Below, in pieces: positions 6,241 to 41,251 of a DNA stretch of 64,000 nt; the stretch's first letter is position 1, and each line of letters starts with the position of its first letter. The notes beneath the pieces are model-generated. The model did not search any database and was not told the DNA's origin. It was given only the letters and a program-made list of their open reading frames with translations. Location of the stretch: positions 5,375,310-5,439,309 of the forward strand of contig JAJEKV010000025.1 in the NCBI GenBank assembly GCA_021234155.1, written 5' to 3'. The translations under genes and the position numbers were made by a program. The stretch comes from Isoetes taiwanensis (taxonomy: Eukaryota > Streptophyta > Lycopodiopsida > Isoetales > Isoetaceae).

Positions 6241-9200
6241 CATTTTGAAATAAGTCCAATCTTATTTAGCAAAATAAAATGATTAAAAAAAAATGTGGCT
6301 ATCATCTTTTCCTCCGGTACATAGCGATAGGTGCGTTCGAGTATGTCAGAGGATTAGAATCGCTACGATCCACAGTGTTGGGTTTCGAATCCCTCCTTGT
6401 CCATAACGGTTCTCTACCCAAAGAGATAGGAAGGCAAAGCGCAGCTTGTGATTGGGGGAGCAGACGCAGAGCTATGGAAGTTACTAGCATTTTAATATGG
6501 GACCAACTTAGACATGGGCCATTTAATCTAGAGAAATGCAAAGGAAAGTTGTGATACACGGTCCCAAGCAGTTTTGGCATAGCTACTGGGAATGCCATTC
6601 TGAACGTTGTTCCGATTTCGAATACGTTCCGAGAGGTGGCACATTCCCGAAATGTTTGTTCCTATTTTGAAACTGTTATCTACCGGGAACGGTGTTCCGA
6701 ACATTTTTAGACGTTTCAAACACTGTTTCTGATGTCGTTCTTAATAGCAAAAATTAAAAAAGCATTTTAGTCTAAAATGAAACAGGAATGTGGTCCTTTT
6801 CTTCCCATCTCTCTCTCTTCACAGCAGGGGCAGCTGCAGCGTTGCAGCAAATCGATATTCATTAATCTTGAGATTAATTTGTTTAAATCGGCATATTGCT
6901 TGAATTCTATCATATTCTGCACAATATCATAATTTACAGATTTGAGTAGACGAATATTATTCATTGCCCTTTATACTTTTAAGCTAGCAAAGTAGTTCAA
7001 TGTGTTCCCCAAATCCATAGTCAATTCTTTTTTTCTTTTTCTTTTTTTTTTTTGTGAAAGTTGGATGTTCTGGTTCTCAGGTTCCGGGTAGCTATGAGTT
7101 TTGGTCAATTTGTTGCATGACATCGAGAATCATTTGCGCGCCAGTGGTAAGTCTTCATGGGATAGAATATGGAACTTTTAATTGTTTTTTTTTGTCTTCT
7201 TCTTTTTGTGAGATGCAGCAACCACAGGCACATGAAGAAGCATATATACAAGGACTCCTTACCAAGACATTGGACTTCCCAAAAATATGGTGATAGGATT
7301 TTCTGCTTCTCTCCTCCCCCTCCCCCTCCCCCTTCTTCCATAGCTATAGTTGCATGCCTGCATGCCAGGCCAACAAAGGGCATAGCAATTGAAGCATAGC
7401 AACTCGTGGTTATTCTTTATAAACTTCGAGAATGCTTTGAATGAAGCTGCTTCTTGGAAAAATTACAAGGATCCAAAATAGTCTTGTTAATAGGTACATA
7501 TTTTTTTCCCATTGTTCTTATTCTTATTCTTAGAATATATGCCATTTCCTTCTATCTACACCAATAATAGTTCATGTATGCTCTGACTACTCTTTTAGAT
7601 GTCAGTTCCAACTAAAACAAAGATTTTTGTATCTAGATTGTACTTTGAGTAGGAAGCTAACGTAGATCCTACCTTTGTCTATGTGAAATTAAGCGAGATG
7701 CAACATTTTTTCTTGATCCTTGATTTGTGCTTCTCTCCATACTTTGCTATTTGTACTAATATTGAAGATAGTTTTGCATTTTTCCATTAGTCCATACTAT
7801 ATCTTCTTTGTTTGTTTGTCTGGGTCCCATACGTCATTTCGTCTCCATGGTGATAAAAGACAATTCAATTCAATTCAATTCTTAATGACTTGTTTAAACT
7901 GGAGTTTTATGTTCTAATGTTATAGTGGCTAATATTTATAAGCTCCAAATCTACCTCAAGTTCTTGACTCTTTTAAAATCAAGGAATGCCTTTACAACCT
8001 ATGGAGATGCCTAACATGATATTTTAGCTTTCTAATCTTCTAATATTTTCACATGTGCCATCTTAATCGAGTTTTTCTAAGGAATCTAGAATTATCCCCA
8101 TGTGACAAGCGAGAAATGGGTAATATTTAGGAGAGATTTTTTATATTGATATTGATGTCAATGGTAAAGTTCCAATAGTAGGGCCGCACGTTGGTTAGTG
8201 GTGCATCATTCAAATAATTTGTACCTCGATATATTGTTGCATGCCCTGCATTTAGTTGCAATGCTTAGGTTCTAAAGATATAAGATATAAACAAAGCAGT
8301 ATTTCATGTTATGCTTTATCAGTATGCATGTTGTATAGGTATTAATGCCCACTTATCTTTATCATGCCCTCTTACCTTTATCAAACATCGGGTTTAGCAT
8401 GCACTTTTCTTCTCATCCCCCTCCCCCCTTTTTATATGCCCTTTTTGGGCAAGGATGGATACTGAACCATATCCATAGAGCAATCCGAGCCATCCAGAAT
8501 GTAGTGCATATTTCTTTTTAAGTAAGAAATTAAATATGCAGTGAAATATTTATTTATTATCTTTATCACCATCATTAGATCAAAATTGAAAATTCTCGTC
8601 TTTAAGATACAACAACAATTGATAGGCTTTTCATTCATCTCAGTTTTCTACAATGATATAGAGTGGGCCGCATATTATAAGGTACCCATAAAATTTAAAA
8701 ACCCTAGAGAATATCTAGTTATATAAGCCTTATTGTTTCTGCTACAAATCTTGGCTAATGTACATCCAAGAGCTTATCATCGAGATTAATAAACCTTCCC
8801 CTTTTGGTTTTCAAGGAAAAACCCTAGTGATAAGCGGCAAGGGGCTTAAACAAATGCAAGGTTGCTAAAACGCCCCATAAAAATCCCACGCTTCAAGGAG
8901 AAACGTGAGTCGGCGCATCACTGCACATCACCACCACTAAAACACAATGATAATAAAACAAAAACCCTCGAAAGCCGTTGAGGTCGTCAATGATGCCACG
9001 AGAGAATTTTGATAAACAACATTTACCTAAATAACAAAATTAAGGGATGGAGAGTGAGAAACAAAGGAAACCGGGCGAGATGAGAAAGCACCAATGATAA
9101 GTTAAAGAAGAACTCCACAATAAATAGCAATCTCCTCAATTGAATGGTGGCTCAAAAAATGTGATATATGCATGCGACGCATGCAATGCATGATGTTGTC

Positions 9201-9989: not shown

Positions 9990-11132
9990 AAGCAGGAGTC
10001 ATGCAGGAATCTTAACTTGAATCCCCTTTTTTTTCAGGGGAAGGGGAGGGGAAACCATAACTAGAAGCCACACGAAAATGCTATAACTAAAAAAACTATG
10101 GGATCAAACGGCAGAGAACCTAGGACCTTATGGAATCTAACCGACATCTCTAACAATCAGACTAAGCAGTAAGATGCTTGACAATCCATGGCAAAGGAGC
10201 AAACATCATGACAACAATCTAACATCCAGACTAGGAACACAACTCATATCGAAGATCCAGTAAGAACCGATCCTTAACCATATTCACATGTAGCAGAGAT
10301 TACATTTTTGGTTAAAAGATAACGGAGAATCGGTTTTCAATATGTTCTGATTTATGCATGTTTAAGCAAGACGGAAGATGGGCATCATGTGGTTGATCTG
10401 TGAAGAAACTAGCTGAGAAAACGCTGAATGATTTAAAGCAATCCGGTCGCCTATTATGGTCGATTCATCCTCCCGCACCATTGAATCCTGCAGCAGAACA
10501 AAAACCCGAAGAATTTGCTACGAAATTCGATCAAACCAATATGACCTTCATTGCAAAATAGAACGAATTTCTTTGCTTAGTCACTCTCGGACCGAAAAAA
10601 GTAAAGGAAATTTGAAAACGAAGCTTGTGTTTTTTTTTGGTCCGTTCTTTTTTCTTAGCCGAGCAGCACATATTTGTGATAATATTGTAACCATCGATGT
10701 CGGCCCAGTTTAAATTAATCGAGAATCCAAAGTGCCGGAATCGAAGATGACATAGATCCGCATATTTTGTGCCGGTCCTATAAGGCTCGTTAGCTGCACC
10801 AACAAAAAAGGCAAAACCAGAACTAGATTGAAAGGGGCGCATCGCCAAAGCGAAAATAACCGCTCAATTTGCCCAATTTCCATAGCCATAGCCATGTACC
10901 GGCGTTTTTAATGGCGTGCTAAAAATAAAATAAAAATATAACTCCTCCCAATGGTTTTTTGGGCCATTATTTTGTAAACTTGGCATGCTCTTAATCACTG
11001 TCTGAGATTTTCATTCTAGGAATGAATCTCGGACCTTGATTCAAGCGTGAAGAGGGGGCATGTATGGGCTATAACAGCTTTATTTGGAATTTTCTTGTCA
11101 CCATAATAATTGTCTTCTTGAACACCTCTTGG

Positions 11133-11254
11133 AATAAAAAATCTCGACAGTAGTCAAGGCTGATAATAGGCTCTACACGGACTAGTTATAGGCCAGAATA
11201 AAAATCTCGACAGGTCATAAAGGATAATAGGCTCTACATCGCCAATTATAGGCC
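11133..11254 (+). repeat. two-copy tandem repeat of about 63 bp
   Basis: Two adjacent copies share aataaaaatctcgaca, gataataggctctaca and agttataggcc. The same pair recurs in unit 2 (about 21858-21978) and unit 3 (about 33271-33402). Confidence 0.65.
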
Positions 11255-13309
11255 GTGAAATGGCCTCGGCCGTCTTGCATATTACATCTTTGGTCGGCCA
11301 GCGACCATTTCTAGCCCATAACGGCACCGTGTAGAGGGGTGTAGAGGCATTATCCACCCCCATAACGTCCCAAAATGTCCATCCAGTATGATCTGGAGCG
11401 AAAAATGGGGTTTGATTTTTTCTGTATTTTTTTTTAATGTTCCCATTGAGAACTCCTCCTTTCCTCATGGCCTTCTTTTTTTAAACCTATACAACATCAA
11501 TTTTGTAATCTGAATGGAACTTCTTTCACACAATGGGATAGGAGCACACTCGAGTTGAGTTTTGCCTTTGTGATATAATCATCATTTCAATGTATTATTC
11601 TAGGTAAATCTTTCGAATACGTTGGAATCCAATAATCCTAAGCCACCCAAAGGGTGAACCCGAATGTGTAATCTAAAGGTATGTTCATGATCGTCACTGT
11701 ACAAGTCTCAATAGTCGACTTGTACAAGATCGAGTAGCCCAACATGTGCTACATGCTGGCCTACAACATTATAAGTAGACAACAATGTTGTTAAAAAACC
11801 CGTTTTTTATTTTTAAAGACCTCTATACAAATCCTCACATTTTCTAAAGGATTTTTATGATTTGGTATCTTCCCATAAAAAAAAAAAATGCACATTTTTT
11901 GCATTGCTTTATTTAACATATTTGCTACTGTTAGAATACACATTTTTGCTACAAGTTACAAGACGTAGTATGCCAACAAGTAAATCAAAAGCTTCTGTTG
12001 CTATTGGAAACTTAAGTTCAAGTACAAAGGTATCATAGCTATTTTGCTATGCAACTTTTATGAAAGTTCAAAAACACATTATAGTGGTTAAGGAATATAA
12101 GAATTTTATATACAAGGATAAATAAGTTCAAGAATACCATATATTTGGATTAAAAAAATTAGAGACTAAGGATTTTTAAGGATTTTAAAAGATTTTTAAG
12201 GATTTTAAAGTTTTTAAAAAAGTTTTTGGGTTGCCCTAAGGGGCAAACCCTTGTTTATGGGGTTTATGGCATATTCCTAGTATATGCCAAAGATATGCAT
12301 GGAATATCGAATAATGGCTAAAAACCCATTGTTGGCGTGAACCTGCGGTCATTTATGTTGCGGGAGCCCCTCTCGAAAACCCGCTAAGCGGTTCTAATCT
12401 AGGTGTTCTCGGTTAACTGGTTCTAATCTAGGTGTTTCTAATCTGTTAATCATAGGGCGGCGATGGCCGGACTGATGTGCAATCGATGTAAGTTAGCAGT
12501 GAGTTTCTCTTGCGTTTTTTCAAGACTGTATGAGCAAAGAAGAGTACGCTTTTGTAAATTTTGTGACCGGAGACCAACCCACGAACCAGGTGGGCTGCAA
12601 CCATCACAAATAAGTTAACGGTGAAAAATATCGATAAGAATCTCCCAAAATCTACCTTGAAACAAGCCGCATTGCATCGAAGAAATACGATTCATAAAAG
12701 CTACTCCATGGATACATGGGGCGGGTAAGGAGATTAACACCCTTTTTTGTTCGCCAATCGAGGTCGAATCGGGGGCGGCCATCAAGAAATCGGAACCGAT
12801 TGCTCCCAAACTACACCCTTTGGCCATGGTACCCTCTGCAACCTCCTTCTTTACAAGCTGTAACTCCTTAATCGATTCCTCGAACTCAAAACTTCTTTCC
12901 AAGATCAAGACAGCTCGCCTCCCTAAAGTTGAGATCCGGACATTCTTCTGTTCCATATCCAAGCTATCAACTCATTAGTTTCGTGTAGCCAGACATGTCT
13001 GAAAGGAAAAATCGAATGAGTTTGTGCTTAGCTGGGGTGATCGGCTCAATCGTGGCTTCGAATCCAGAGCTGGTGATTCTTGTGCATCGATCCTGCTGGT
13101 AAACGTAGCCGATTATGGAGCCCCCTGATTACCTGTTTAATAGAAAGAGTTTTTCAGAGACCTGCTCATGATATGATCAACATAAAAATGCCCCTACCTA
13201 GCTTTCAAGAGCCGAACTCCATCGCCCGCAGCTTGAGCATTATCTCTTTTGGAAATCCAGGCCGGATCTAAGGTCTATGCTTTTACACTGAGGCATGCAA
13301 ACAGACATG

Positions 13310-14330
13310 AAAAGTTGAAACGCATGAAAGAAAGGCATTCAGTCTGCATGCAAAGGAATGGGGGCCGGAGATAGCGCCATAGCTGCAACCTCGGTTCTGG
13401 ATAATGGGAGCGTCGCCATGGCTATGGAGCGGCAGGTAAGCAAAAGATAAGTTCATAAGGCCTCTGGGTCGGTGAACGCCCGTAATGTCGGAAAAGACAG
13501 CCCGCATGTGTCGACCACTTCATCTTGCCAGAGAGCCATCATTTTTGCGTGTGGGCAGTCAACAGCAGGTAGGAGTCGACAGTCTGACACTCCTCCCATT
13601 AATCCACGTATCTACCTACCCCCGATTATGTCCGTTGATGCCTTATTGCCACCCGCTTTCTTGGTGATTACACTTTAAAAAGTTAGGTTTCCTCTTTTGA
13701 TCAAGGTTAGGTTTCCATATAATTTAATATCACTAGGGGTTGAACTGTATTTTGTGGCCAAGGTGGAGGTACGAGTCCCCCAGCCTTTTTTCCAAATCCC
13801 CCTAGTTAGTTTTCATTGTTATTCAAGGTTAGGTTTCCAGCCGATCTTGCTTTTTGCACCCTAGGGGTTTTTGCATAAATGCATGAAAAGTGCCGGAATG
13901 GGCATGCAGAGATCAAGCACATGCAGAGATCAAGCTCATGCAGAGATCAAGCACATGCAGTTGCATGGTGCGGAATAGCATCTGGAGTTAGTGCCATAAT
14001 CGGTGCTTTAAAATCTCACCATGCTGGAATGGAGTGGTCGCCATGGCCATGGCCTCTCTACTAAGGAGGAAGAAAATGTTAAAGGTGCCAGGCTCGAATT
14101 TTTCCCAGACAGTCGGAATGCGACAGTGCACAGCGTACTGCCAGTTTGCCTGTCATGATTTTTTCGTATGGACAGAGGTAGGTGGAGGCAGACAGCCTGG
14201 GAAACCCCACGTGTCTACCTAATTTTTCAACTTGTCTGTTGATGTCCTCTTCCCGCCCGCTTTATTGGTGATAACACTTTAAAAAGTAAGGTTTCTGCCT
14301 TTAATCGAGGTTAGGTTTCCATCTGAGTTC
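13310..14330 (+). repeat. old internal duplication of about 0.5 kb
   Basis: The segment from about 13310 to 13830 is echoed at about 13870-14330. Both halves contain, in order, a ggaatggg...gcatgcaaag/gcatgcagag string, a 'cgccatggctatgg' / 'cgccatggccatgg' core, a 'gtaggagtcgac' / 'gtaggtggaggc' motif, 'ccacgtatctacct' / 'ccacgtgtctacct', 'ttggtgataacactttaaaaagt' type sequence and 'gaggttaggtttcc'. The halves are well diverged, so this duplication predates the 11-kb array. It occurs in all three units. Confidence 0.6.
13903..13960 (+). repeat. 17-bp tandem repeat (catgcagagatcaagcw)
   Basis: Three copies plus a partial in unit 1, the same in unit 3 (about 36010-36067), and two irregular copies in unit 2 (about 24664-24711). 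Confidence 0.75.
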
Positions 14331-15006
14331 TCTTTTCAACAATTTTCAATAAGGCTACAAATTCTGCATGGTGGTGTTTTATTGCTAAAATCTTTAGCAT
14401 GGGCGTTGTTTTATTTTAAAAAATTGGTGGTGATCCTCAAATTCCAACTGCTTCATGTACGATTGATTTTTGAGTGCTAAAATTTTGCAATGGTCCTCAA
14501 ATCCACTTGCATCATGTCGAATAGCTGACTTTAAGGTGGAAGACTTGACCTTTTCTATTAAACTTGTCCTTATGCTTCTGCAATACTTACTCTATGCCGA
14601 GCACCAAAAATTTCTTCAGGGCAATTCCCATAAAATCATGGTATCAAGTACTCTATTGTTTTGAAGTAGAAATTTTGATTGATTGTGAAAACATGACTTT
14701 GAAGATTTAAGCCACTTCACCCTCTGGCCGTGGAGGGCAATCCTCCATGCGCAGCACCTTGTTAACATATTTTGTCTGAAATATGTTTTTAAAGATTTTT
14801 TCCAAAAATTTTAAAAATCTTAAAAAAATCTTAAAAAACGTTTTTTAAACGTACGGATTTTGACGTACTTAATAACATTGGTAGACAATCTAGTGTGGGT
14901 GGGTTTTTTTTTTTTTTTTTTTTTTGAAGGGGGGGGATCTATATAACTGCCTAGCTATTCCGATTATCTATCTACTACCTAGAGGTCACCATAAGCAATT
15001 TGGACT

Positions 15007-15345
15007 ATGGGAGCAAAGGAAAAACCGTTCAAGTCTTCAACCAAGGAAGACAGCGATGATGAAGATTTGGTCTTTGCGCAGTTGAAATACGAAATACTGG
15101 CCATGAAATCTCTTCTGCAGGAAATCATGAAAGGACATCGAGAAGTTTCAGATGAAAATTAAAAACTTCAAATTTGTATAAGAGAGCTTGAATTGCAAAG
15201 CGAGATGGATGCATAACAGCTCAAGATACTAAAGGAAGAGAAGCAAACTTTGGCCAAATTAGAACCTAAGAATGATGTTATGAAATTTTTTTTTGACTAA
15301 TTTGGAAAACAAGGATTTGCATTGTTTAAAGAAGGGCAAGACAGA
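15007..15345 (+). pseudogene. gag-like coiled-coil remnant, unit 1
   Basis: An ATG at 15007 follows a poly-T/poly-G tract and a TATA-like tctatataac. It opens 51 codons beginning MGAKEKPFKSS with an acidic DSDDED patch. After the TAA at 15160-15162 the same frame continues as a heptad-like coiled coil, interrupted by another TAA. Unit 3 has CAA where unit 1 has the first TAA, so that stop is probably a later C-to-T change. The acidic start plus coiled coil is reminiscent of plant retroelement gag, but no zinc knuckle, protease, RT or integrase follows. The family assignment is an inference. Confidence 0.35.
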
Positions 15346-15629
15346 GTAGAGTAAATAAGATTGCAAATATTAAGGTCTCGGGCTTCATGAAACACAAGAT
15401 GACAATTTGATAGAAGTAATGGACGATTTCCTTATATAAGAATAAGGCATTTTTACATGAACCTGGATTACATTCATGCACAAGAATAGGAAAGAAATTG
15501 GAAGGACGTCATAGACCACGGATCTTAAGTTTTTTTATCTATAGAATCCAGAAATTGGGTAATGTAACATTCATGCACTCAGTTTGTAGATGATATGGGA
15601 TGTATAATTCCAAATAAGTTAGCATATTA

Positions 15630-16071
15630 CATCTCCTGTAGAGCTATCCTATAACACTTAGTTATAGTTTAAGAACCCTCATCAATGAGCCCTAATGGAA
15701 CCCTATCTGTAACCTAGATGCATATGATTTGAATTAGTTGAGCATATATTATTCCTCAAGTTATGGATGTTCTATGATGATGGTTGATCATTGTTTGCAC
15801 CTTTTGTATATGAGGGGATAGAGATCTCGTAGCCATAGAGACGATGCTCCTAGCTAGTTCCAATAATTCTCAATTATATGCGGCCTATGCATAGGAGCCC
15901 ATCTGGTCGTGGGTATCAGGAGGTAACAGGGATGCACAAGGTAGAACTCGCCTAGTGACAGTTGGACCCTTGGCATGTAGAGTCTAACAAGGGTCATAGT
16001 GTGCTAGGCTCAAAAGTCTACCACAACCTATAGGTAGAGTATGAGTCTGACATGTCCTATATGATGCATTC
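15630..16071 (+). repeat. partial LTR-like segment (diverged copy of LTR interior)
   Basis: This stretch aligns by eye with the interior of the neighbouring LTR (about 16480-16910). Shared blocks include aatgaaccctaa/aatgagccctaa, gttgatc-ttgtttgcacc-tttgt, gggatagagatct/ggggtagagacct, gatgctcctag, gcataggagcccatctgg and ggtatgggtccgacac / gagtatgagtctgacatg. It has no TG or CA end of its own. It could be a fragment of a related LTR into which the full LTR inserted. It is present in units 2 (about 26870-27308) and 3 (about 39270-39712). Confidence 0.5.
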
Positions 16072-17611
16072 TGTGACGTTCCCCTAAAATATACGGCATA
16101 CGTACGTATATTTTACGGCCACATCACCATACATTTCTACATCCCTAGACATGTATACGAACAATGTGGGGGTAATGACTAAGTTATCTATAACTTAGCC
16201 AACCTAAGGTAAGAAGCCATTTCCACATGGCCTCACCTTATAGGCATACCGCCACATAGATGCACCTATAGGAGCCAAGTGGCACTCATGTAAACCCTAC
16301 CATATAAAAGGCTAAACCCTAAACCCTAGCCACTTTTGGCTCCACCAACCTCAGACCCACCAGTTCACGATCGAAAGCTCGACCAAGACCGCCTCTTGAC
16401 GGCTGGGTTCTGGCAGCCCTTTGCCGAGATGGAGAACCAGGAAATTCCAGGGGTAGCTGCCGTCAGCGGTTTTCAATAGATTCCTGTATTGCAGTAGAGC
16501 CATTCCAGAACCTATTGTTCTGAACATGAACCCTAATCAATGAACCCTAACTATAGGTTAGATGCATGTGATTAGAATTAATTGTTATTCTCTTTAATTA
16601 TCAAGATTATGTTGATATGATGTTTGGTTGATCTTATGTTTGCACCTCTTGTGTATTTGGGAAGGGGGTAGAGACCTATAGTAGCCATTATTTAAATGAT
16701 GCTCCTAGTTTAGACCCATTAGTTCCCATTAATTTGCGGCCTGTGCATAGAGCCCACCTGGCTACGGAGTCTATGGAGCACCACACAACGGGGTCAGTGG
16801 CAAAGTGGAGGGGGCCTTGCTGAGCCCTCTTGGGGTCCCATAGCGGGCTAGGCTCATAGTCGGTCACTTCATGTGGGCCGGGTATGGGTCCGACACTTCC
16901 TGGGTCAATGGTGTCGCCTCGACTCTCAAGAGTTGCAGAGTGTCGGGCTTGGCTCTTGTTTTGGGGAGTTCAGGTGGTATGGGCGTGTGTCGCCACGATC
17001 CTCTAGCCCCGCCCATGGAGCCACCAAGACTCAGGGGGGAGATGCAACCCTTCCTACCTCATCGCGACCGGGAGATGCAACCCGAGTAGTCTCGTTGGGT
17101 GATACCATGGGATTACGTCTCCGTGAGATTCTGATCACGTCGAGAGCCCCGATAGCCTATCCGCCAAAGCAGTATGCGGGAGAGGGGGATGGAGGGTCAA
17201 CCCTAGCCATTGTCTATTGCCAGCCAAGTCATTGCCATAACTCCTGGGCTGTTCTATCTGGAGGCCCCCAAATGACTCCCCTTGAGTCCCCCAGCCCGGT
17301 AGGAGCCTCTATTTGATGTATTTGACGCATTCATTGTAATTGTTGTATTTGATGACATGGTTAGATGTATTATCACTACCCTTGAGGTAGTTTATTGTTA
17401 TTGTAGCTAGTGCTTATGTTGTATATTTTTGCTTCGTGACATAGGGACCCCATAGAAAACGGACGAGAATGACACCTCTGGTCCTCTACTCGATCGTCTC
17501 GGACCCCGAGACGCGAGTTAAACAGAGGGCCCATACTGACGGTGCCGTTGGATGGGGAAGGTCCTTCGATGCATACGGCGGGCTGTCGTATATAGCGCAA
17601 GGAGCGTCACA
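16072..17611 (+). mobile_element. LTR (Ty3-chromovirus style), unit 1
   Basis: Starts TGTGACGTTCCCC and ends GGAGCGTCACA, giving inverted 7-bp ends TGTGACG/CGTCACA, 1,540 bp. A TATA box (tataaaa, 16303-16309) is followed by telobox-like ctaaaccctaaaccctagcc, fitting a promoter and transcript start. A tRNA-iMet primer-binding site follows after 1 bp. TGTGACG starts are common among plant Ty3/Gypsy chromoviruses (established knowledge). No polypurine tract is visible just upstream, so this reads as a 5' LTR of a truncated or non-autonomous element, not a complete element. Open frames inside (16871-17316) are shadows. Confidence 0.8.
16303..16309 (+). promoter_or_regulatory. TATA box in LTR
   Basis: tataaaa about 230 bp into the LTR, directly upstream of a telobox-like AAACCCTA repeat. 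Conserved in all three LTR copies (around 27541 and 39951). Confidence 0.6.
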
Positions 17612-17612
17612 A

Positions 17613-17624
17613 TGGTATCAGAGC
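17613..17624 (+). other. primer-binding site for tRNA-iMet, unit 1
   Basis: TGGTATCAGAGC, complementary to the 3' end of plant initiator tRNA-Met, 1 bp after the LTR end. This fixes the LTR as a 5' LTR. Confidence 0.85.
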
Positions 17625-18101
17625 AATGTTCTTGGTTGACCAAGATCAAGCACTGACCATCACCTTATAATAGAAAACTAACTGGCCTAGTAAAAATTGG
17701 GGTGCGAATCCCAATATTAAAACCTCGAGTGGGAAAAGTTTTCCATGGATAAGGTCATCCTTAAAATAAAGTCTAACTTAGAAAATAATAGTAATAGAAT
17801 CCATGAATTCTAGAGCTTGATGAAAAAAAAAATAGAATTGGCCAAAATAGACTTCCCGGTGGAATGTGGTGCAAATCCACAATAAATAACCTAGGGACCA
17901 TTGGAGAATTATAGGGTTCTAATATTATAGGGTCAATGTAAATGAAGGTGTTTGGAATAAATAACCGTAAATATCCCTATATATACCCTAATTTGGCCAC
18001 AATAATTTTGCCTTAATCTGTTCCTTAAATCCCTTCTGAGTTACCTTCTCTCCAAAAAGGAGATCTTTAAGAATTTTCGTCCAACTCCAGAGCAGTTTGA
18101 T
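17625..18101 (+). promoter_or_regulatory. leader/promoter region between primer-binding site and H3-like frame
   Basis: About 480 bp with no coding frame. A tatatata box at 17978-17985 (in 'ccctatatataccc') lies about 120 bp before the ATG and is conserved in all three units. The H3-like frame may therefore have its own promoter as well as the LTR promoter. The element 'attatagggt' occurs twice at about 17908-17932. Confidence 0.4.
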
Positions 18102-19158
18102 ATGGCGCGCACGAAAGCCACCGCCAGGAAATATCAAGCTCGTGAAGGTGTTCGACACGTAAGCATAGGCAAGCAGATTTACCCTAAGAAACATCCAAGA
18201 AGCGAGAGCGAAGAATCATCCGATGAACGGAGTTCACAGGAAGACGAGACGGTGGTATTAGTAGATTATGCGGAGTCATCGTCAGAAGAACAGCAGTCAG
18301 AATGACAAGAACAAGTACAATCGCAGCAGGGAGAGGACTTAGAATCGCGAAAAAGGAGGGAAGTACGCCGGGGTAAGCGAAAAGTAACACACGTGGCCAC
18401 AGAGGACTCGGAGGAACAAGACGAGTCAATTGCACGGGAGAGACGATCTAAACGCCGCCTTGATAGGTATGGTAACTCGAGTCTAGTAATTCATGATCAA
18501 GGACATTAGGAGCAAACAGAACAAAATCTCTCGGAGCAAGCGATAGCACCGCCACCACCATATCCGAAATGGCCTACCCATGGGAAATCAGATAAGAAGT
18601 ACAGAGCAGGGGAGAGACCATTAAGTCTCCAGAAAGATCGGGAATACCGGAGGAAGTTGCAAGATTACCGTGCATATATGGAACAATGGGTTGCCTATAA
18701 TCATTGGTATAGCACACTGAAGATTCCCAGATTTGTAAAAGGAGGAAGACCTCGAGCGGATGTTCGGAAACCCCCACCTCGACCGGAGGAGCTGAAGAAA
18801 CCGGCAAAGCACGTGCCAAACTCGAAGCACTCCAGGGCCCTAAGAGAAATTAGGCATTTCCAACAATGCGTAAATCTCTTGATTCGAAGAGCCCCATTCG
18901 AGAGGCTAGTGCGAGAAATTATGCGTGAATTTACTACCCAAAGATAGGGTTACCCCTATGATGCTCAGGGTTTGCCAAGAAGCAGCTGAGGCAGAGTTGT
19001 GTCAGTTGTTTGAGGAGTCAAATCTCTACGCTATTCACGCAAAACGAGTCACTGTTATGCCGAAGGACATGAATTTGGCGAAACGAATACGAAGGGAAAC
19101 GATATTGGGGGTATTTTTGAAGGGTTACAAAATCATGAAATCTTGTCATAATTATTAG
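18102..19158 (+). pseudogene. long-tailed histone H3-like protein, unit 1 (two stops, one frameshift)
   Basis: The frame starts MARTKATARK, matching the H3 tail MARTKQTARK with K4 and K9 kept and Q5 changed to A. An acidic SESEESSDERSSQEDE patch (residues 34-49), a basic RKRREVRRGKRK patch (about 83-94) and an aromatic YRAYMEQWVAYNHWY block (about 189-203) follow. The H3 fold begins at ALREIRHFQQ (nt 18837, about codon 246; codon 47 in normal H3). Alpha-1 is [15 protein letters not shown]. After a frameshift near 18943 come the alpha-2 parts [24 protein letters not shown] and alpha-3 [17 protein letters not shown], then about 17 extra residues. Loop 1 has canonical H3 length, unlike the longer loop usual in plant CENH3. 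No intron is seen. In-frame stops are TGA 18303-18305 and TAG 18507-18509. The histone identity is secure, but the role is unknown. It could be a retroposed H3 variant or a gene captured by the LTR element. Confidence 0.85.
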
Positions 19159-19335
19159 TAAATGTTTATGTCAAAGGTGTTCGTTTTATATGTTTAAAGG
19201 TTCTTCTACATTAAAGGACTATGTATTAAACTTTGCTTACTAATCTATAAAGTCTCCTTGTTTCCATAAAATTGTAAAGCTATAGTGCTTCTACAAAGTT
19301 ATTATGGAATATTAAATTTTCTAGCGCTTATAGAA

Positions 19336-19406
19336 TAGTATTTTAACTTGGTATTCAGGTAGCTATGAGTAATGCTAGTATTGAAGCGTTGTATTTTAAC
19401 TTGGTA
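19336..19406 (+). repeat. short duplicated motif downstream of H3-like frame
   Basis: tattttaacttggta occurs twice, separated by 'ttcaggtagctatgagtaatgctagtattgaagcgttg'. The motif is expanded to three copies at 48080-48235 on the far side of the Helitron. Confidence 0.6.
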
Positions 19407-19677
19407 ACAGAGATTTAGTTTTCAAATGCAGATATTATAAAGAACTCAAGGAAACTATGTTCTGATTTATGCAGGTTTAAGCAAGATGGAAGATGGTAGT
19501 TTCGAATCCTAAAGTAGCAGTCTATTTATAGGTACTGCGAAAGGAAAACTATGTTTCCTCCACAGCCATTTTTCTTTTTTTTAATTGAAGGGAGGGAATG
19601 CACACTGCATGGTGAGACTTGCATTCACCCACGTCGGTGCTAGTATTGGCTACATCGTTTTAGTCATAGCGCGGCAT

Positions 19678-20290
19678 GATTAGCTCGAGCTAATCACTGT
19701 GATTCGCTCGAGATAATAATGTGATTAGGTCTTGCGAATCACAAAAAATGACATGGCACAAGACGGCAGGCTGGTGGCGCATCAATGCAAAGATGTTTTC
19801 GCATGTTATTATTGTGCATTTATTATTGTGCGTGTGTGTTATGATTAGCTTGAGCTCATCGCACATTTCAAATGTGAGTCTAATTGTGAGCGTTAAGTAT
19901 ATTCGCATGTGCGATGTGGTTAGTTCAAGATAACCAAACATTATTATTTCCATGTGCAAAGAATCTTCCCTTAGATATTGCACCAGATGGTACAATTATG
20001 GGGGAAAGTTCATGTCAGATGTGATTGCTCGCATAATCACAGCTACCTCGTGAAGTGTGTATGGGTCAGAGGCATGCTCAGGTGCACAGGCAAGATTTGC
20101 AGAGATGCTGAAAACACGAGCAGGAGAGGAAAAAACACAAAAAAATCATGCCACCATGTCACTGTGATTAGCTCGAATGAATCACTCAACTCACTTCCAG
20201 GAATACGAAGATTCGCTCGAGCGAATCACTTTGGTACCCCAGTTTTAGGAATCCGAACATTCGCTCGACTGGATCACATTGGCATCTCAC
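19678..20290. repeat. cluster of XhoI-centred palindromes, unit 1
   Basis: Perfect 18-bp palindromes GATTAGCTCGAGCTAATC (19678-19695) and GATTCGCTCGAGCGAATC (20210-20227), with partial forms at 19701-19712, about 20165-20183 and about 20260-20277. The interval is otherwise non-coding. The unit 2 counterpart starts at 30895. Confidence 0.7.
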
Positions 20291-20324
20291 AGGGGAGCCA
20301 ATAAAGTGTGCGCCTTGTCTCCTA

Positions 20325-20405
20325 ACCAGGTATAGATAGTGGGATTTGAACCTCTGGCTGGATGAGGCCAAACCCGTAGATCCACCTCTAGACCACCGCC
20401 ATGAT
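20325..20405 (-). repeat. tRNA-like head (SINE or tRNA pseudogene), unit 1
   Basis: On the minus strand, TGGTCTAGAGG (A-box-like, 20385-20395) and GGTTCAAATCC (perfect B box, 20342-20352) lie at tRNA spacing. No clean acceptor stem can be paired, so a SINE head or tRNA relic is likelier than a working tRNA. Confidence 0.45.
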
Positions 20406-23400
20406 GGACAACCATTAGTTTTTTTACTATGGGATATTTGGTTTAATATTCCTAGGAATTTCAGGTATTTTGTATGCTAGGTATTAAATTTTCAAAGTCT
20501 CCATCGTCACAATTGTGTTTTCATCTAACAGAGTATATTCTAGGTAAGATTTAGCAATAATGCAGGATTTACCGATAATGCAGGATGTATAAATTGACAC
20601 ATGATTTGAAGTAGAGCTGCTAAGTGACCTAAAGTAGCCTTTGCAAAAGATCATGGATGGTAATAAAAATCTGTTTGGACAAAATTTAGAACCATGTTTT
20701 TGCAAGTGGAGACCTAAGCAGGAGTCATGCAGGAATCTTAACTTGAATCCCCTTTTTTTTCAGGGGAAGGGGAGGGGAAACCATAACTAGAAGCCACACG
20801 AAAATGCTATAACTAAAAAAACTATGGGATCAAATCGGCAGAGAACCTAGGACCTTATGGAATCTAACCGCATCTCTAACAATCGAGACTAAGCGAAGAT
20901 GCTTGACAATCCATGGCAAAGGAGCAAACATCATGACAACAATCTAACATCCGGACTAGGAACACAACTCATATCGAAGATCCAGTAAGAACCGATCCTT
21001 AACCATATTCACATGTAGCAAAGATTACATTTTTGGTTAAAAGATAACGGAGAATCGGTTTTCAATATGTTCTGATTTATGCATGTTTAAGCAAGATGGA
21101 AGATGGGCATCATGTGGTTGATCCGGTGAAGAAACTAGCCGAGAAAAACGCAATGATTTAAAAAGCAATCCGGTCGCCAAGTTATGGTCGATTCATCCTC
21201 CCGCACCATTGAATCTCGCAGCCCGAACAAAAACCAAGAATTTGCTCTTAAATTCGATCAAACCAATATGACCTTCATTGCAAAATAGAACTAATTTCTT
21301 TGCTTAGTCACTCTCGGACCCCTGAACGTAGGGAAATTTGAAAACGAAGCTTGTGTTTTTTGTCCGTTCTTTTTTCTTAGCTGAACAAAGACATTTTGTG
21401 ATATCAGTAACCATCGATGTCAGCCCAGGTTTAAATTAATCGTAATCCAAAGTGCCTAATCGAGAAGATGACATAGATCCGCATATTTTGTGCCGGGTCT
21501 ATAAGGGCTCGTTAGCTGCACCAAATGAAAAAGGCAAAACCGAACTAGATTGAAAGGGGCGCATCGCCAAAGCGTAAATAACCGCTTCAATTTGCCAATT
21601 TCCATAGCCATAGCCATGTACCCGGCGTTTTTGCGGCGTGCTAAAAATAAAATAAAAATATAACTCCTCCCAATGGTTTTTTTTTGCCATTATTTTAGAA
21701 ACTTGGCATGCCCTTATTACTGGCCCCGAGATTTTCATTCTAGGAATGAATCTCGGGGCGATTGATTCAAAAGCGTGAAGAGGGCATGTATGGGCTATAA
21801 CAGCTTGGCTGGAATTTTTGTTGTCACCATAACAGTCGTCTTCTTGAACACCTCTTGGAATAAAAATCTCGACAAAGTCAAGGCTGATAATAGGCTCTAC
21901 ACCTGACTAGTTATAGGCCGAATAAAAAATCTCGACAAAATTAAAGGCTGATAATAGGCTCTACACGGTTATAGGCCGTGAAATGGCCTCGGTTGTCTTA
22001 GATCGATATTACCTCTTTGGGTACAACCTCGACCATTTCCTAGCCCATAACGGCCTGTGTAGAGGGTGTAGAGGCTGTTATCCACCCCATAACGTCCCAA
22101 AATGTCCATCCAGTATGATCTGGAGCGAAAAATGGGGTTTGATTTTTTCTGTATTTTTTTTTAATGTTCCCATTGAGAACTCCTCCTTTCCTCATGGCCT
22201 TCTTTTTTTAAACCTATACAACATCAATTTTGTAATCTGAATGGAACTTCTTTCACACAATGGGATAGGAGCACACTCGAGTTGAGTTTTGCCTTTGTGA
22301 TATAATCATCATTTCAATGTATTATTCTAGGTAAATCTTTCGAATACGTTGGAATCCAATAATCCCAAGCCACCCAAAGGGTGAACCCGAATGTGTAATC
22401 TAAAGGTATGTTCATGATCGTCACTGTACAAGTCTCAATAGTCGACTTGTACAAGATCGATAGCCCAACATGTGCTACATCTTTGCTACAACATTATAAG
22501 TAGACAACAATGTTGTTAAAAAAACCCGTTTTTATTTTTTAAGACCTCTATACAAAATCCATACATTTTCTAAAGGATTTTTTTTTATGATTTGGTATAC
22601 TTTCCTCCCCTCCCCTCCCCCCCACCCCCAAAAAAAAAATGCACATTTTTTGCATTGCTTTATTTAACATATTTGCTACTGTTAGAATACACATTTTTGC
22701 TACAAGTTACAAGACGTAGTATGCCAACAAGTAAATCAAAAGCTTCTATTGCTATTGGAAACTTAAGTTCAAGTACAAAGGTATCATAGCTATTTTGCTA
22801 TGCAACTTTTATGAAAGTTCAAAAACACATTATAGTGGTTAAGGAATATAAGAATTTTATATACAAGGATAAATAAGTTCAAGAATATCATATATTTGAA
22901 TTAAAAAAATTACAGACTAAGGATTTTTAAGGATTTTAAAAGATTTTTAAGGATTTTAAAGTTTTTAAAGGTTTTTGGGTTGCCCCTAAGGGGGCAAACC
23001 CTTGTTTATGTGGGTTTATGGCATATTCCTAGTATATGCCAGTATATGCATGGAATATGCGAATGACTGCTAAAAACCCATTGTTGGCCGTAAACTGCCG
23101 GTCATTTATGTTGCGGTGGGAGCCTCTCAAACCGGGTTAACCGGTTCTAATCTAGGTGTTCTACTAATCGGTTCTAATCTAGGTGTTCTAATCTGTTAGT
23201 GCCGAATCGGCGATGGCACCGGACCGGGTTTGAACTCGATGTGTTGGGGCAGGCCGAAGCTCTTTGGCGTTTTCCTGATCGACAGATGAGCAGCAAGAGT
23301 CCAAGCTGTAAATTTTGCACCGGAGGCCAACCCCACTCACCGGGTGGGCTGCAAAACCATCCCAAATAAGTTAACGAAAAAATATCGATAAGAATCTCCC

Positions 23401-25749
23401 AAAAATCTACCTTGAAACAAGCCGCATTGCACGAAGAAATACGATTCATAAAAGCTACTCCATGGATACATGGGCGGGTAAGGAGATTAACACCCTTTGT
23501 TCAGAATCGAGGTCGAATCAAGCGGCCATCAAAGAACCGAACCGATTGCTCCCCAAACTACACCCCTTGGCCATGGCTGTACCCTCTGCAACCTCCTTCT
23601 TTACAGCGGCCTTCATAATCGATTCCCCGAACCTGAAAACTTCTTTCCGAGATCAAGACAGCGAGCTCGCCTCCCTAAAGTTAAGATCCGGACATTCTTA
23701 CTCGCTCCATATCCAAGCTATCAACTCATTAGTTTCGTGGTAGCCGACATGTAATCCGAAAAGGAAAAATCGAATGAGTTTGTGCTTAGGTCAAGGTGGT
23801 CGGCTCAACCGTGGCTTCAATCCGTGAGTGATTCTTGTGCATCGATCCTGGCCGGTAAACGTAGCCCGATTATGGAGCCCCCGACACTGCTTAATAGAAA
23901 GAGTTTTTCGAGACCCGCCATGATATGATCAACATAAAAATGCCCCTATCTAGCTTTCAAGAGCGAACTCCATCGCCTCAGCTTTGAGCATTATCTCTTT
24001 TGGAAATCCAGGCCGGATCTAAGGTCTATGCTTTTACACTTTCTGAGGCATGCAAACAGACATGAAAAGTTGAAACGCATGAAAGAAAGGCATTCAGTCT
24101 GCGCACATGCAAAGGAATGGGGGCCGGAGATAGCGCCATAGCTGCAACCTCGGTTCTGGATAATGGGAGCGTCGCCATGGCTATGGAGCCGCGGGTAAGC
24201 AAAAGATAAGTTCATAAGGCCTCAGGTCGAGAACGCCCGTGAATGTCCCTGAAAGAGACGATTACGCATGTGTCGACACTCGTCTTTGCCAGAGCCATCA
24301 TTTTTTATGTGGAGGGCATCAACAGCCAGTAGGAGTCGACAGTCTGACACTCCTCCCATTAATCCACGTATCTACCTACCCCCGATTATGTCCGTTGATG
24401 CCTTATTGCCACCCGCTTTCTTGGTGATTACACTTTAAAAAGTTAGGTTTCCTCTTTTGATCAAGGTTAGGTTTCCATATAATTTAATATCACTAGGGGT
24501 TGAATCGTATTTTGTGGCCAAGGTGGAGGTACGAATGTCCCCCAAAATTTTTCCAAATCCCCTAGTTAGTTTTCATTGTTATTCAAGGTTAGGTTTCCGG
24601 CCGATCTTGCTTTTTTGCACCCTAGGGGTTTTGAATAAATGCATGAAAAGTCTTTGGAATGGGCATGCAGAGATCAAGCTCATCCATGCAGAGATCAAGC
24701 ACATGCAGTTGCATGGTGTGAATAGCATCCGGAGTTAGCGCCATGTCGATGCTTTAAAAATCTCACCATCTTTGGAATGGAGTGGTCGCCATGGCCATGG
24801 CCTCTCTACTAAGGAGGAAGAAAATGTTAAAGGTGCCAGGCTCGAATTTTTCCCGGGCAATTGAATCGACGACGGTGCAGCGTCTTGCCATTTTACTGTC
24901 ATGATTTTTTTCAGATGGACGAGAGGTAGGTGGAAGCGCATGCACAGGGAAACCCCACGTGTCTACCTAATTTTTCAACTTGTCCATTGATGTCCTCTTC
25001 CGCCCACTTTATTGGTGATAACACTTTAAAAGTAAGGTTTCAGCTTTTTAACCAGGTTAGGTTTCCATCTGAGTTCTCTTTTCAACAATTTTCAATAAGG
25101 CTACAAATTCTGCATGGTGGTGTTTTATTGCTAAAATCTTTAGCATGGGCGTTGTTTTATTTTAAAAAATTGGTGGTGATCCTCAAATTCCAACTGCTTC
25201 ATGAGATTGATTTTTGAGTGCTAAAATTTTGCAGTGGTCCTCAAATCCACTTGCATCATGTCGAATAGCTGACTTTAAGGTGGAAGACTTGACCTTTCTA
25301 TTAAACTTGTCCTTATGTACAATACTTACTCTATGCCTGAAAGCACCAAAAATTTCTTGAGGGCAATTCCCATAAAATCATGGTATCAAGTATTCTATTG
25401 TTTTGAAGTAGAAATTTTGATTGATTGTGAAAACATGACTTTGAAGATTTAAGCCACTTCACCCTCTCTTTGGCGTGGAGGGCAACCCCTCCATCTTTGA
25501 AGACCTTGTTAACATATTTTTAATCCTAAATATGTTTTTAAAGATTTTTTCCAAAAATTTTAAAAATCTTCAAAAATCTTAAAGAACGTTTTTTAAACGT
25601 CACGGATTTTGACGATACTTAATAACATTGGTAGATGTAATCTAGTGTGGGTGGATTTTTTTTTTTTTTTTTTTTTTTGGGGTCTATATAACCCTAGCTA
25701 GTTCGATTATCTATCTACTACCTAGAGGTCACCATAAGCAATTTGGACT

Positions 25750-26082
25750 ATGGGAGCAAAGGAAAAACCGTTCAAGTCTTCAACCAAGGAAGACAGCGAT
25801 GATGAAGATTTGGTCTTTCTTGGTTTGAAATCTGAAATCTTGGCCATGAAATCTCTTTCCAGAAATCATGAAAGGACATCGAAGTTTCGAGATGAAAATC
25901 AAAAACTTCAAATTTGTATAAGAGCTTGAATTGCAAAGCGAGATGGATGCATAACAGCTCAAGATACTAAAGGAAGAGAAGCAAAATTTGGCCAAATTAG
26001 AAGCTAAGAATGATGTTATGAAAGTTTTTTTTGACTAATTTGGAAAACAAGGTTTTGCATTGTTTAAAGAAGGCAAGATGAG
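25750..26082 (+). pseudogene. gag-like coiled-coil remnant, unit 2
   Basis: Copy of the unit 1 frame starting MGAKEKPFKSS. It is frameshifted in several places relative to units 1 and 3 and cut at about 26083 by the LINE fragment. Confidence 0.35.
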
Positions 26083-26610
26083 AATAGAATAGAATAGAAT
26101 AGAATAGAATAGTTTTTTATCGCCCATGGGACCAATCGGCCTATGGGACCCGGAGGAGCGCTGAGCAAACTTATTACTATCCGGGTTAAAAAACCCCGCC
26201 CAAAAAGGGTGTTCGAGGGAAAAATCGTGGCGATAATAAGAATGCAAAACTGCACAAGTATACATCATCATGAAATAAATGTGTATGTACATGTCAAGTC
26301 GTGCCCGAGGACATAGCTGATCTTCGCATGTCCATGACCTCAAGGTATGATCCAGCATCCGCGTCACGGATGCCGTGTAATGTCACATGTAGCTGCTGGC
26401 GGGGCCGACCAACCACGATAGCGTCCGGATTTGATCATATCTTTGGCAACTTTGAAGGGTATGAGATTCATCCTCAATGACTCCCATTTGGCAGCATTGA
26501 CAAAGCCTGTCCTGACGTGGCTCACCAATCCATCTGCCTGTCTCAATTCGAAGATGATGTGCCCCTGTGCGAATGGAGGCAATGAGTCTGCGTCTTTTCA
26601 TGGGCAAGTA
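26083..26610 (-). mobile_element. 5'-truncated LINE fragment
   Basis: Inserted in unit 2 only. Read on the minus strand it encodes the C-terminal end of a non-LTR reverse-transcriptase protein: HLRIETGRWIGEPR, then LCQCC and ESHTLQSC, a CCHC-type zinc knuckle ahead of QRYDQIR (26383-26607). It ends in a (TATTC)n tail, seen as repeated gaatag/aatag at 26083-26111 on the plus strand. A 3' tail microsatellite and 5' truncation are typical of LINE insertion. The right junction also lost about 25 bp of unit sequence compared with unit 1. Confidence 0.7.
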
Positions 26611-27308
26611 GCATTGTGGGCTTCATGAAACACAAGATGACAATTTGATAGAAGTAATGGACGATTTCCTTATATAAGAATAAGGCATTTTTACATGAAC
26701 CTGGATTACATTCATGCACAAGAATAGGAAAGAAATTGGAAGGACGTCATAGACCACTGATCTTAAGTTTTTTTATCTATAGAATCCAGAAATTGGGTAA
26801 TGTAACATTCATGCACTCAGTAGGTAGATGATATGGGATGTATAATTCCAAATAAGTTAGCATATTACATCTCCTGTAGAGCTATCCTATAACACTTAGT
26901 TATAGTTTAAGAACCCTCATCAATGAGCCCTAATGGAACCCTATCTGTAACCTAGATGCATATGATTTGAATTAGTTGAGCATATATTATTCCTCAAGTT
27001 ATGGATGTTCTATGATGATGGTTGATCATTGTTTGCACCTTTTGTATATGAGGGGATAGAGATCTCGCAGCCATAGAGACGATGCTCCTAGCTAGTTCAA
27101 TAATTCTCAATTATATGCGGCCTATGCATAGGAGCCCATCTGGTCGTGGGTATCGGAGGTAGCAGGGGATGCACAAGGTAGAACTCGCCTAGTGACAGTT
27201 GGACCCTTGGCATGTAGAGTCTAACAAGGGTCATAGTGTGCTAGGCTCAAAAGTCTACCACAACCTATAGGTAGAGTATGAGTCTGACATGTCCTATATG
27301 ATGCATTC

Positions 27309-28840
27309 TGTGACGTTCCCCTAAAATATCTGGCATCGTAATGCGTATATTTTACGGCCACATCACCATACATTTCTACATCCCTAGACATGTATCACGA
27401 ACAATGTGGGGGTAATGACTAAGTTATCTATAACTTAGCCAACCTAAGGTAAAGCCATTTCCACATGGCCTCACCTTATAGGCATCTTAGCCACATAGGC
27501 GCACCTATAGGGCCAAGTGGCACTCATGTAAACCCTACCATATAAAAAGGCTAAACCCTAAACCCTAGCCACTTTTGGCTCCACCAACCTCGGACCCACC
27601 CCACGTTCGAGCTCGACCCGGGCCGTCTTGACGGCACGGGTTCTGCAGCTGGCCGATTGCGAGATGGAGAACCGAGGAATCGGTGATGTAGCGTCGGTGT
27701 GTGTTTCAATAGATTCTGTGTTTTAAAGTGAGCCATTCTAGAACCTGTTGTTACGAACATGAACCCTAATCAATGAACCTAACTATAGGTTAGATGCATG
27801 TGATTAGGATTAATTGTTATTCTCTTTAATTATCAAGATAATGTTGATATGATGCTGGTTGATCTTATGTTTGCACCTCTTGTGTATTGGGAAGGGGGGT
27901 AGAGACCTATAGTAGCCATTATTTAAATGATGCTCCTAGTTTAGACCCATTAGTTCCCATTAATTTGGACTGTGCATAGAGCCCACCTGCTCTCGGAGTC
28001 TATGGAGCACCACACAGCGGGGTCCAGGTGGCAAAGTGGAGGGAGGGCCTTGCTGGCGTAGCTACTGGGGTCCCATAAGGGGCTAGGCTCATAGTCGGTC
28101 ACTTCATGTGGGCTGGGTATGGGTCCAACACTTCTGAGTCAATGGTGTGCATACGACTCTCAAGAGTTGCAAGTGTCGGCTTGGCTCTTGTTTTGGGGAG
28201 TTCGATCGGGTATGGGCGTGTGTCGCCCACGATCCTCCTAGCAGCCCATGGAGCCACTTGCACTCAGGGAGGGGAGATGCAACCCTTCCTACCTCATCCC
28301 GGACCCGGAGATGCAACCCTAGTAGTCTCGTTGGGTGATACCATGGGATTACGTCTCCTGAGTTCTGATCCACGTCGAGGCCTGATTTAGCCCCTATCTG
28401 CAAAAGTATGCACCTTGAGGGCAGATGGGTGGTCAACCCTAGCCATTGTCTATTGCCAGCCCAAGTCATTGCCATAACTTCGATCACTTCTCCGGCCCCA
28501 GTGACTCCCCTTGAGTCTGAGCCACAGGTAGGAGCCTCTATTTGATGTATTTGACGCATTCATTGTCTTGTTGTATTTGATGACATGGTTAGATGTATTA
28601 TCACTACCCTTGAGGTAGTTTATTGTTATTGTAGCTAGTGCTTATGTTGTATATTTTTGCTTCCGTGACATAGGGACCCCATAGAAAGCGGAATGAGAAT
28701 GACACCTCTGTGTCCTCTACTCGATCGTCTGACCCCGGACCAGAGTTAAAACAGGGCCCATCTGACGGAGTGCCGTTGGATGGGGAAGGTCCTTCGATAC
28801 ATCACGGTGGGCTGTGGTATATAAGCAAGGAAAAATCACA
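27309..28840 (+). mobile_element. LTR, unit 2
   Basis: Starts TGTGACGTTCCCC and ends with tcaca (the CGTCACA end has become AAATCACA). About 1,532 bp. Same TATA and telobox region. Matches the unit 1 LTR closely in AT-rich parts and poorly in GC-rich patches. Confidence 0.8.
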
Positions 28841-28841
28841 A

Positions 28842-28852
28842 TGGTATCGAGC
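28842..28852 (+). other. primer-binding site for tRNA-iMet, unit 2 (1-nt deletion)
   Basis: TGGTATCGAGC, one base shorter than the TGGTATCAGAGC of units 1 and 3. Either decayed or a consensus error. Confidence 0.7.
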
Positions 28853-29327
28853 AATGATCTTGGTTGACCAAGATCAAGCATCGCCATCACCTTATGATAG
28901 AAAACTAAGCTGGCCTAGTAAAAAATTGGGGTGCGAATCCCAATATTAAAACCTCAGTGGGAAAAAGTTTTCCATGGATAAGGTCATCCTTAAAATAAAG
29001 TCTAACTTAGAAAATAATAGTAATAGAATCCATGAATTCTAGAGCTAGATGAAAAAAAAAAATAGAATTGGCCAAAATAGACTTCCGGTGGAATGTGGTG
29101 CAAATCCACAATAAATAACCTAGGGACCATTGGAGAATTATAGGGTTCTAATATTATAGGGTCAATGTAAATGAAGGTGGTTGGAATAAATAACCGTAAA
29201 TATCCCTATATATACCCTAATTTGGCCACAATAATTTTGCCTTAATTTCCTTAAATCCTTACGAGTTACCTTCTCTCCAAAAGGAGATCTTTAAAATTTT
29301 TCGTCAACTCGGAGAAAGCGGTTTGAT

Positions 29328-31544: not shown

Positions 31545-31626
31545 AACCAGGTATAGATAGTGGGATTTGAACCTCTGGCTGGATGAGGCCAAACCAGAGA
31601 TCTGACCTCTAGACCACCGCCATGAT
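31545..31626 (-). repeat. tRNA-like head (SINE or tRNA pseudogene), unit 2
   Basis: Same A-box and B-box pair as in unit 1 (A box 31606-31616, B box 31563-31573). Absent from the truncated unit 3. Confidence 0.45.
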
Positions 31627-36999: not shown

Positions 37000-37033
<34 letters not shown>

Positions 37034-37112
37034 AAGGGGGGGTCTATATAACTTTTCAGCTAGTCCGGATTATCTATCTACTACCTAGAGGTCACCATAA
37101 GCAATTTGGACT

Positions 37113-41250: not shown

Positions 41251-41251
41251 A

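Follow-up and report, generated by a model that had tools for sequence, protein, structure and literature searches.

A histone H3-bearing first ORF in dispersed Ty3/gypsy LTR retrotransposons of Isoetes taiwanensis, and its probable broken, tandemly triplicated relative

In the genome of Isoetes taiwanensis there are dispersed Ty3/gypsy LTR retrotransposons that encode, in their first open reading frame (ORF1), a histone H3 whose N-terminal part is long. According to our analysis, an H3-like frame at 18102-19158 (forward strand) of a 64,000-bp stretch of this genome (hereafter the window; G000:C1029:5375310-5439309) is very probably a broken, tandemly triplicated relative of this ORF1. An earlier note, made from the letters of the window, had taken the frame for a plant H3 variant. 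This claim has to be abandoned, because an LTR lies upstream of the frame in each tandem unit and the relatives of the frame are followed by gag-pol.

The first copy was delimited by frame reading, by Pfam matches to both halves of the fold and by a 99% self-match (G000:C1029:5393411-5394250). It starts with MARTKATARK at 18102, one change from the H3 N-terminus A-R-T-K-Q-T-A-R-K, and continues without introns in one frame over some 245 tail residues to ALREIRHFQQ at residue 246, where the H3 fold follows and then a C-terminal extension of about 20 residues; on the start, the tail and the lack of introns the earlier reading was accurate. Three lesions interrupt the copy, namely stops at codons 68 (TGA) and 136 (TAG) and a frameshift within loop 1 near 18944, and the second half of the fold lies in a different frame from the first. 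Both halves exceeded the curated cut-off of Pfam Histone PF00125 (8e-08 for 18510-18944 and 1.9e-12 for 18949-19155), and PDB H3 chains aligned over the fold (query 2-112, 9e-28, with the two window pieces joined by XX as the query), which confirms the claimed H3 identity as an H3-type core histone along alpha-N to alpha-3. The best 120 of 870 H3s retrieved with the fold from the protein database matched it at 49-61%.

The same database search with the tail yielded eight proteins, all with a histone domain, at a query coverage of only 12-23%, and the search with tail residues 141-248 yielded 12 candidates, none of which scored; no relatives were found in viral contigs or in prokaryote contigs. 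Over a 630-bp stretch of the tail, its own frame contains 2 stops and each of the two remaining forward frames 12. The expectation is 10.7 stops, and 20,000 Markov sequences gave a P(<=2) of 0.00135, which makes it unlikely that the tail is open by chance; one reverse frame of this stretch holds only 3 stops too. The AlphaFold2 model of the tail with the first half of the fold was poor as a whole (pTM 0.31) and contained a predicted helix at tail residues 176-206, in an aromatic block, with 10-residue pLDDT means of 77-92.

The survey of relatives covered 1.658 Gb in 1110 contigs. The genome searches with PF00125 and with the query P0130 gave 8705 and 12960 candidates, respectively, these being loose first-look counts and not copy numbers. 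The best 150 PF00125 matches were scored and all exceeded the cut-off; five of the 150 listed had an internal stop, as judged by eye. By eye, the first 15 scored 164-165 bits, and the eight of them that were fetched (L001-L008) were canonical H3s. These eight host H3s all carry Tyr41, with no Phe41 form among them; Phe41 is reported to have arisen in H3.1 in ferns (PMC5809374), so that the finding may reflect either an early-diverging land plant or a set made up of H3.3-like genes only. The other 135 of the 150 scored 144-155 bits and had open frames of up to 494 aa (by eye). Twenty of these 135 (L009-L028), picked for long frames, were fetched, and in 20/20 the H3 fold lies behind a long N-terminal part in an open frame that measures 367-494 aa from stop to stop; all 20 proved to be element-borne. 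The P0130 search gave at least 119 matches, 48 of them without a stop by eye. At an identity of at least 57%, 33 matches were listed, window copies 1 and 3 included and some being pieces of one copy; 28 have stops and the other five are partial (by eye), so the close kin of the window look dead. At 43-56% identity 86 were listed, 43 of them stop-free by eye; most start at residue 19-81 and end at 327-351 and therefore cover much of the tail. Seven stop-free matches were fetched, of which L033 failed the filter and was dropped, and six ORFs were kept.

The ORF1 sequences form two clades with different N-terminal parts and an H3 fold in both. Clade II is represented by the six open ORFs, which are 346-376 aa long from the first Met and have tail and fold in common with the window; intact copies thus exist elsewhere in this genome, a point that the earlier note had left to a search. 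Four of the six start with MARTKQTARK, L032 starts with MARTKQTYWG and L036 starts later. Serine-rich and acidic stretches are followed by a basic KKRERE block, PPYPKWP or a near form of it, the aromatic block and the fold. In clade I (L009-L028) the fold is preceded by about 310-360 residues, which begin with MPRFKLTVDLKK... or METPKQVYKRKP... and share the motif RIPYP[IL]F..NER, with L018 standing apart; an ARTK start was seen in 0/20 and ARKS in 1/20. The H3 core motifs IHAKRV, KD[LI] and FKTDLRFQ occur in all 20 clade I ORFs, and the eight folds compared were 84-89% identical to host H3. For the clade I N-terminal module (the first ~220 residues of ORF1) there was no meaningful Pfam match and no sequence relative in PDB (best E 0.59).

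The elements have the order LTR, ORF1, an unrecognised ORF (in clade I), gag, protease, RT/RNase H and integrase, and the 3' LTR was read in one clade I element. Most of the 20 clade I loci are similar to one another over kilobases, starting at a left end common to them that carries the terminus TGTGACGTTCC; within one substitution, this terminus is present 5' of ORF1 in 18/20, its position in L016 looking internal. Paired direct LTRs were found in two loci. In one, the 5' LTR begins at position 1529 of L011 and the second lies in the adjoining L029 (96.7% identical over 1.65 kb), with about 11.6 kb from LTR start to LTR start. In the other, L023, direct repeats of 2.27 kb (95.6%) flank ORF1 and ORF2, and the polypurine tract AAGGAGGGGAGAA lies immediately 5' of the second repeat; inspection of L023 by eye for a target-site duplication and a tRNA primer site gave no clear result.

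Gag-pol was read in one element of each clade, L011 + L029 in clade I and L037 in clade II. L011 carries gag, a CCHC motif and protease, and L029 carries RT, RNase H and integrase, followed by the second LTR. The Pfam matches over this element were Ty3_capsid (1.5e-16), RVP_2 (1.7e-13), RVT_1 (7.5e-33), RNase H (2.6e-33) and the integrase zinc finger (2e-20), while rve and CCHC fell under their cut-offs. DNA similarity to its RT region reaches into L021, L018 and L024. Between the histone ORF and gag lies ORF2, of 460-470 aa (5387-6796 in oriented L011 and 5422-6801 in oriented L016), for which no Pfam family was found. L037 lies on the same contig as the clade II locus L030, 2.2 kb downstream of its ORF1. 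By tblastn, its RT-integrase stretch matches L029 at 77% over 643 aa, with gag and protease matches too; its pol frame is interrupted by stops.

The window holds three tandem units, at 9990-20829, 20716-32049 and 32246-42953, the last ending about 170 bp past the third H3 frame. They are about 10.7-11.3 kb each and about 88-93% identical, with one H3-like copy apiece (at 18.1, 29.3 and 41.7 kb). The three repeats of about 11 kb that had been noted from the letters alone are thus real, with the amendment that all three copies are broken: none is open, and copies 2 and 3 are more disrupted than copy 1. Copy 2 (29328-30377) and copy 3 (41741-42782), both on the forward strand and with approximate ends, have many frame breaks. 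For copy 2, reading 27700-30701 in all three forward frames with stops as X produced no Pfam match, and copy 3 matched Pfam Histone at 3.2e-4, under the cut-off. A foldback-like near-palindrome of about 200 bp (32046-32245) lies exactly between units 2 and 3.

An LTR on the forward strand adjoins each window ORF1, with similarity over 1.0-1.7 kb, E down to 5e-178 and a common terminus. The LTR of unit 1 (16072-17689) carries the terminus, ends about 0.4 kb 5' of ORF1 and matches the LTR of L030 at 68% over 1764 columns (E 5e-178); those of unit 2 (27309-28917; E 5e-144, terminus present) and unit 3 (39713-41328; E 4e-153, terminus with one change) match it at 66%. Directly 5' of the LTR of unit 1 lies a second, partial LTR piece (15587-16058), and the other units have such pieces at 26825-27295 and 39230-39700; all are on the forward strand and 62-63% similar to L030 556-1005. 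Searches of the window for remnants of gag or pol, by tblastn with clade I and clade II pieces and by Pfam over unit 1 and the greater part of the sequence lying outside the three units, were negative; the X-coded reading that gave no gag-pol did detect the histone. The histone was the only Pfam family found over the window frames, the scan running up to 60.1 kb of the 64 kb, with forward frames for 1-2.3 kb and the tested forward frames for units 2 and 3. Since gag and pol remnants are lacking, the array is not a complete element, and the tandem unit may be a piece of the element plus flank.

Two other features of the window are recorded here. The stretches 49336-53006 and 60656-63995 are an older duplication of about 70-81% identity, with strong loss of CG and CAG/CTG between the copies. 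At 701-1081 lies an open frame of 127 aa with acidic repeats of the TEETGEEGVKKTEE type and a possible exon at 1165; no Pfam match was obtained for it in the forward frames.

The place of the window copies among the elements is given by several comparisons. The LTR regions of clade I match the window at 16661-17659, 27892-28880 and 40304-41298 with 61-65%, and the first of these stretches is matched by the LTR region of 18/20 clade I loci (all except L016 and L019). When 59 overlapping 2.1-kb stretches of the window were compared with the clade I LTR regions, 13 had any match, and the eight strongest of these (at least 113 bits) sit over the three LTR sites. Counted from the start of the LTR, the ATG lies at a distance of 2030 bp in the window, of 2197 bp in L030 and of 1968-2663 bp in 17/20 clade I loci, the exceptions being L017 and L019, which lack the terminus, and L016, whose only match looks internal. 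At the protein level, 6/6 clade II ORFs are matched by window 18510-18944 (50-53% over 109-128 aa, a large share of them in the tail) and by 18949-19155 (70-78% over 50 aa). The start of the tail (18102-18302) matches four of the six, two of them only over the first 14 residues, and its middle (18306-18506) gave one weak hit (22 aa, E 0.003). In the tree of the fold, the window and the six clade II ORFs form one group with a support of 100/99.

The breakage of the window copies should be read with the quality of the array in mind. Among the sites where CAG/CTG is seen in any copy, 37/288 keep it in all three units, against 111/233 for the GAC/GTC control, and CG is kept at 134/483, against 252/531 for the GC control. 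The substitution rate between units is 0.092-0.116 near CG or C[AT]G and 0.013-0.017 elsewhere, a contrast inflated by counting a motif when present in either copy. Small indels amount to 0.45-0.56 per substitution in the array, with a ts/tv of 0.94-1.15. The controls were pairs of dispersed elements of the same genome, which differ among themselves: L016/L017, L009/L022 and L024/L025 have 0.06-0.08 indels per substitution, a ts/tv of 1.7-2.2 and no special CAG/CTG loss, while L011/L012, L014/L015 and L023/L028 are intermediate, and the LTR pair of L023 also shows CAG/CTG loss. We rejected 5mC deamination as the chief source of the differences between units, since its products account for only 31-34% of the lost CG (the GC control having 18-28%) and for 7-16% of the lost CAG/CTG.

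CG and CHG are methylation contexts in plants. Systematic nanopore errors arise from base modifications, according to an excerpt of a bacterial study (PMC10687267). Both points together suggest that the array was poorly called at methylated sites. The concentration of the unit differences at CG and CAG/CTG implies that assembly error may lie behind some of the breakage; decay fits as well, and poor calling does not prove that the window copies are intact. Gene calls in 9990-42953 are therefore to be treated as unreliable.

Across dispersed copies, the H3 fold of both clades is kept under purifying selection. We used Nei-Gojobori dN/dS values as mean dN over mean dS, with saturated or very small dS pairs dropped, for loci drawn from the best histone or tail matches, which biases the sample to intact copies. 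In clade I group A (10 loci), dN/dS was 0.036 for the fold (45/45 pairs), 0.101 for the module (31/45) and 0.201 for the linker (32/45); in group B (7 loci, 21/21 pairs) the values were 0.020, 0.126 and 0.126, with L018, L027 and L028 outside both groups. The six clade II loci gave 0.052 for the fold (9/15 pairs), 0.096 for the aromatic block (15/15) and 0.137 for the rest of the tail (14/15). With dS of about 0.5-1.4 among the compared loci, such low dN points to selection at the protein level and not to mere youth. The earlier note had considered that the tail might be an unrelated read-through of non-coding DNA; the open relatives and their tail dN/dS of 0.10-0.14 speak against this.

Taken as a whole, the results are probably best explained by an H3 carried by the element for element-made chromatin, with broken clade II copies in the window. 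The element H3 would pair with host H4 and would then enter nucleosomes or pack onto element cDNA, and the long N-terminal part may lend H3 chromatin a property useful to the element. This property could be chromatin control on its own copies, either by resisting or redirecting silencing of the H3K9/K27 type or by means of a factor recruited by the tail. Control of the chromatin of the element's own copies is, in our estimate, the likeliest single property, even if the odds are somewhat against it. That clade II keeps K4 and K9 in context suggests that its H3 is used as one open to modification. Since clade I is without the K4/K9 start and clade II has it, a simple story of lost silencing marks does not fit both clades, and control over their own chromatin could be their common theme.

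The main rival to chromatin control is a different job in the same element, where the H3 ORF would pack cDNA or target integration, as a tether to nucleosomes or chromatin, instead of acting on silencing. The complete fold in the open ORFs, the basic blocks in the window tail and the helix that AlphaFold2 predicts in the aromatic block would suit such a role, which we hold to be a serious possibility, if short of an even chance. A domesticated element gene, that is, a host locus that kept and amplified LTR and ORF1 after the loss of gag-pol, appears unlikely. It would be consistent with an array of three tandem copies that has LTR and ORF1 and no gag-pol, and with a copy 1 that is open save three lesions in a sequence that is itself unreliable; however, all three copies read as broken, and the dispersed relatives nearest to them (90-92% over query 1-340) have stops too, as dead element copies would. 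Plant LTR elements are known to capture pieces of host genes, and on this general background the H3 ORF might be a captured passenger of no use to the element. For such a hitch-hiker dN/dS should drift towards 1, whereas it is 0.02-0.05 in the fold and 0.10-0.14 in the tail or module at the dS given above, and we regard this explanation as very unlikely.

The position of the fold in the H3 tree bears on whether a host gene is involved. The clade I folds form a group with a support of 94/96 (10/20 loci) or 99/97 (all 20). Both clades and the window as one group had an AU p of 0.319, which is compatible with one capture of H3 as well as with two, and the window with clade I alone had 0.117, a grouping that is neither rejected nor supported. 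With the fold alone, the grouping of the window with plant CENH3 was not rejected (AU p 0.47 and 0.53); in the best tree the window and clade II adjoin plant CENH3 with a support of 37/0, which is no evidence either way. The fold tree called for in the earlier note places the window firmly with clade II and is neutral on kinship with CENH3. Loop 1 has the canonical length: by eye, it spans 17 residues, after Phe to QEA, in L030 as in the host H3 L005, so that the earlier description of it as canonical and not of the CENH3 type holds for the open clade II ORFs, while the three window copies differ from each other at loop 1. The H3 of clade II is perhaps a CENH3-like one. CENH3 or another host variant was seriously weighed until the discovery of the clade II elements, and is now disfavoured. 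A host H3 variant gene (e.g., CENH3 or a gametic H3) that came to lie near LTR sequence by chance and was duplicated would account for the MARTK start and for a fold not separable from CENH3, and an excerpt of one study reports cenH3s and divergent plant generative-cell H3s as not clearly separable (PMC3380720), but the tail common to dispersed relatives, the like LTR upstream of L030 (read in this one locus) at a similar distance with gag-pol downstream, the canonical loop 1 and the 100/99 grouping with element ORFs make it the most improbable of the explanations.

Plant Tat/Ogre-type elements have an extra ORF before gag. The elements described here resemble Ty3/gypsy elements, those of the Tat/Ogre type included, in their LTRs, polypurine tract, gag, aspartic protease, RT, RNase H, integrase and an extra ORF between LTR and gag, and differ from them in that this extra ORF encodes, after a long N-terminal part, a complete histone H3. 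Histones are carried by viruses, namely H4 by bracovirus and core histones by Marseillevirus and Medusavirus. These are likewise selfish elements encoding a core histone; here, in contrast, the carrier is an LTR retrotransposon with many dispersed copies in one genome, with H3 only among the parts read and an N-terminal part that measures about 245 to 360 residues. With plant CENH3, the likeness lies in a long variable tail starting MART and in FQ, NLLI and APF in alpha-N/alpha-1, and the differences are the canonical loop 1 length, the RIR end and the element-borne position. The gH3, gcH3 and leH3 of Lilium are divergent plant H3s as well, but they are host genes, and the excerpted text on them makes no mention of such a tail (PMC3380720). 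A limited literature search found no histone-encoding retrotransposon, which weakly supports its absence from print; the layout, put forward in the earlier note as the best candidate for something undescribed, can keep this label within that search, and only its framing as a host variant falls.

For annotation, our survey carries a warning, as the best-scoring histone-family matches in this genome are mostly not host H3 genes: 135/150 listed fall below the canonical group in score, and the 20 fetched from among them are all element-borne. A bolder reading, less likely than not, is that this lineage makes its own H3-bearing nucleosomes, with H3 fused to different N-terminal parts in the two clades, so that the copies set their own epigenetic state in a histone arms race. 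Few host proteins are as constrained as H3, which is also the protein on which plants write the silencing of transposons. An LTR retrotransposon with its own selected H3 and a long new N-terminal part would have a direct lever on the silencing system, and whether transposons supply nucleosomes becomes a testable question.
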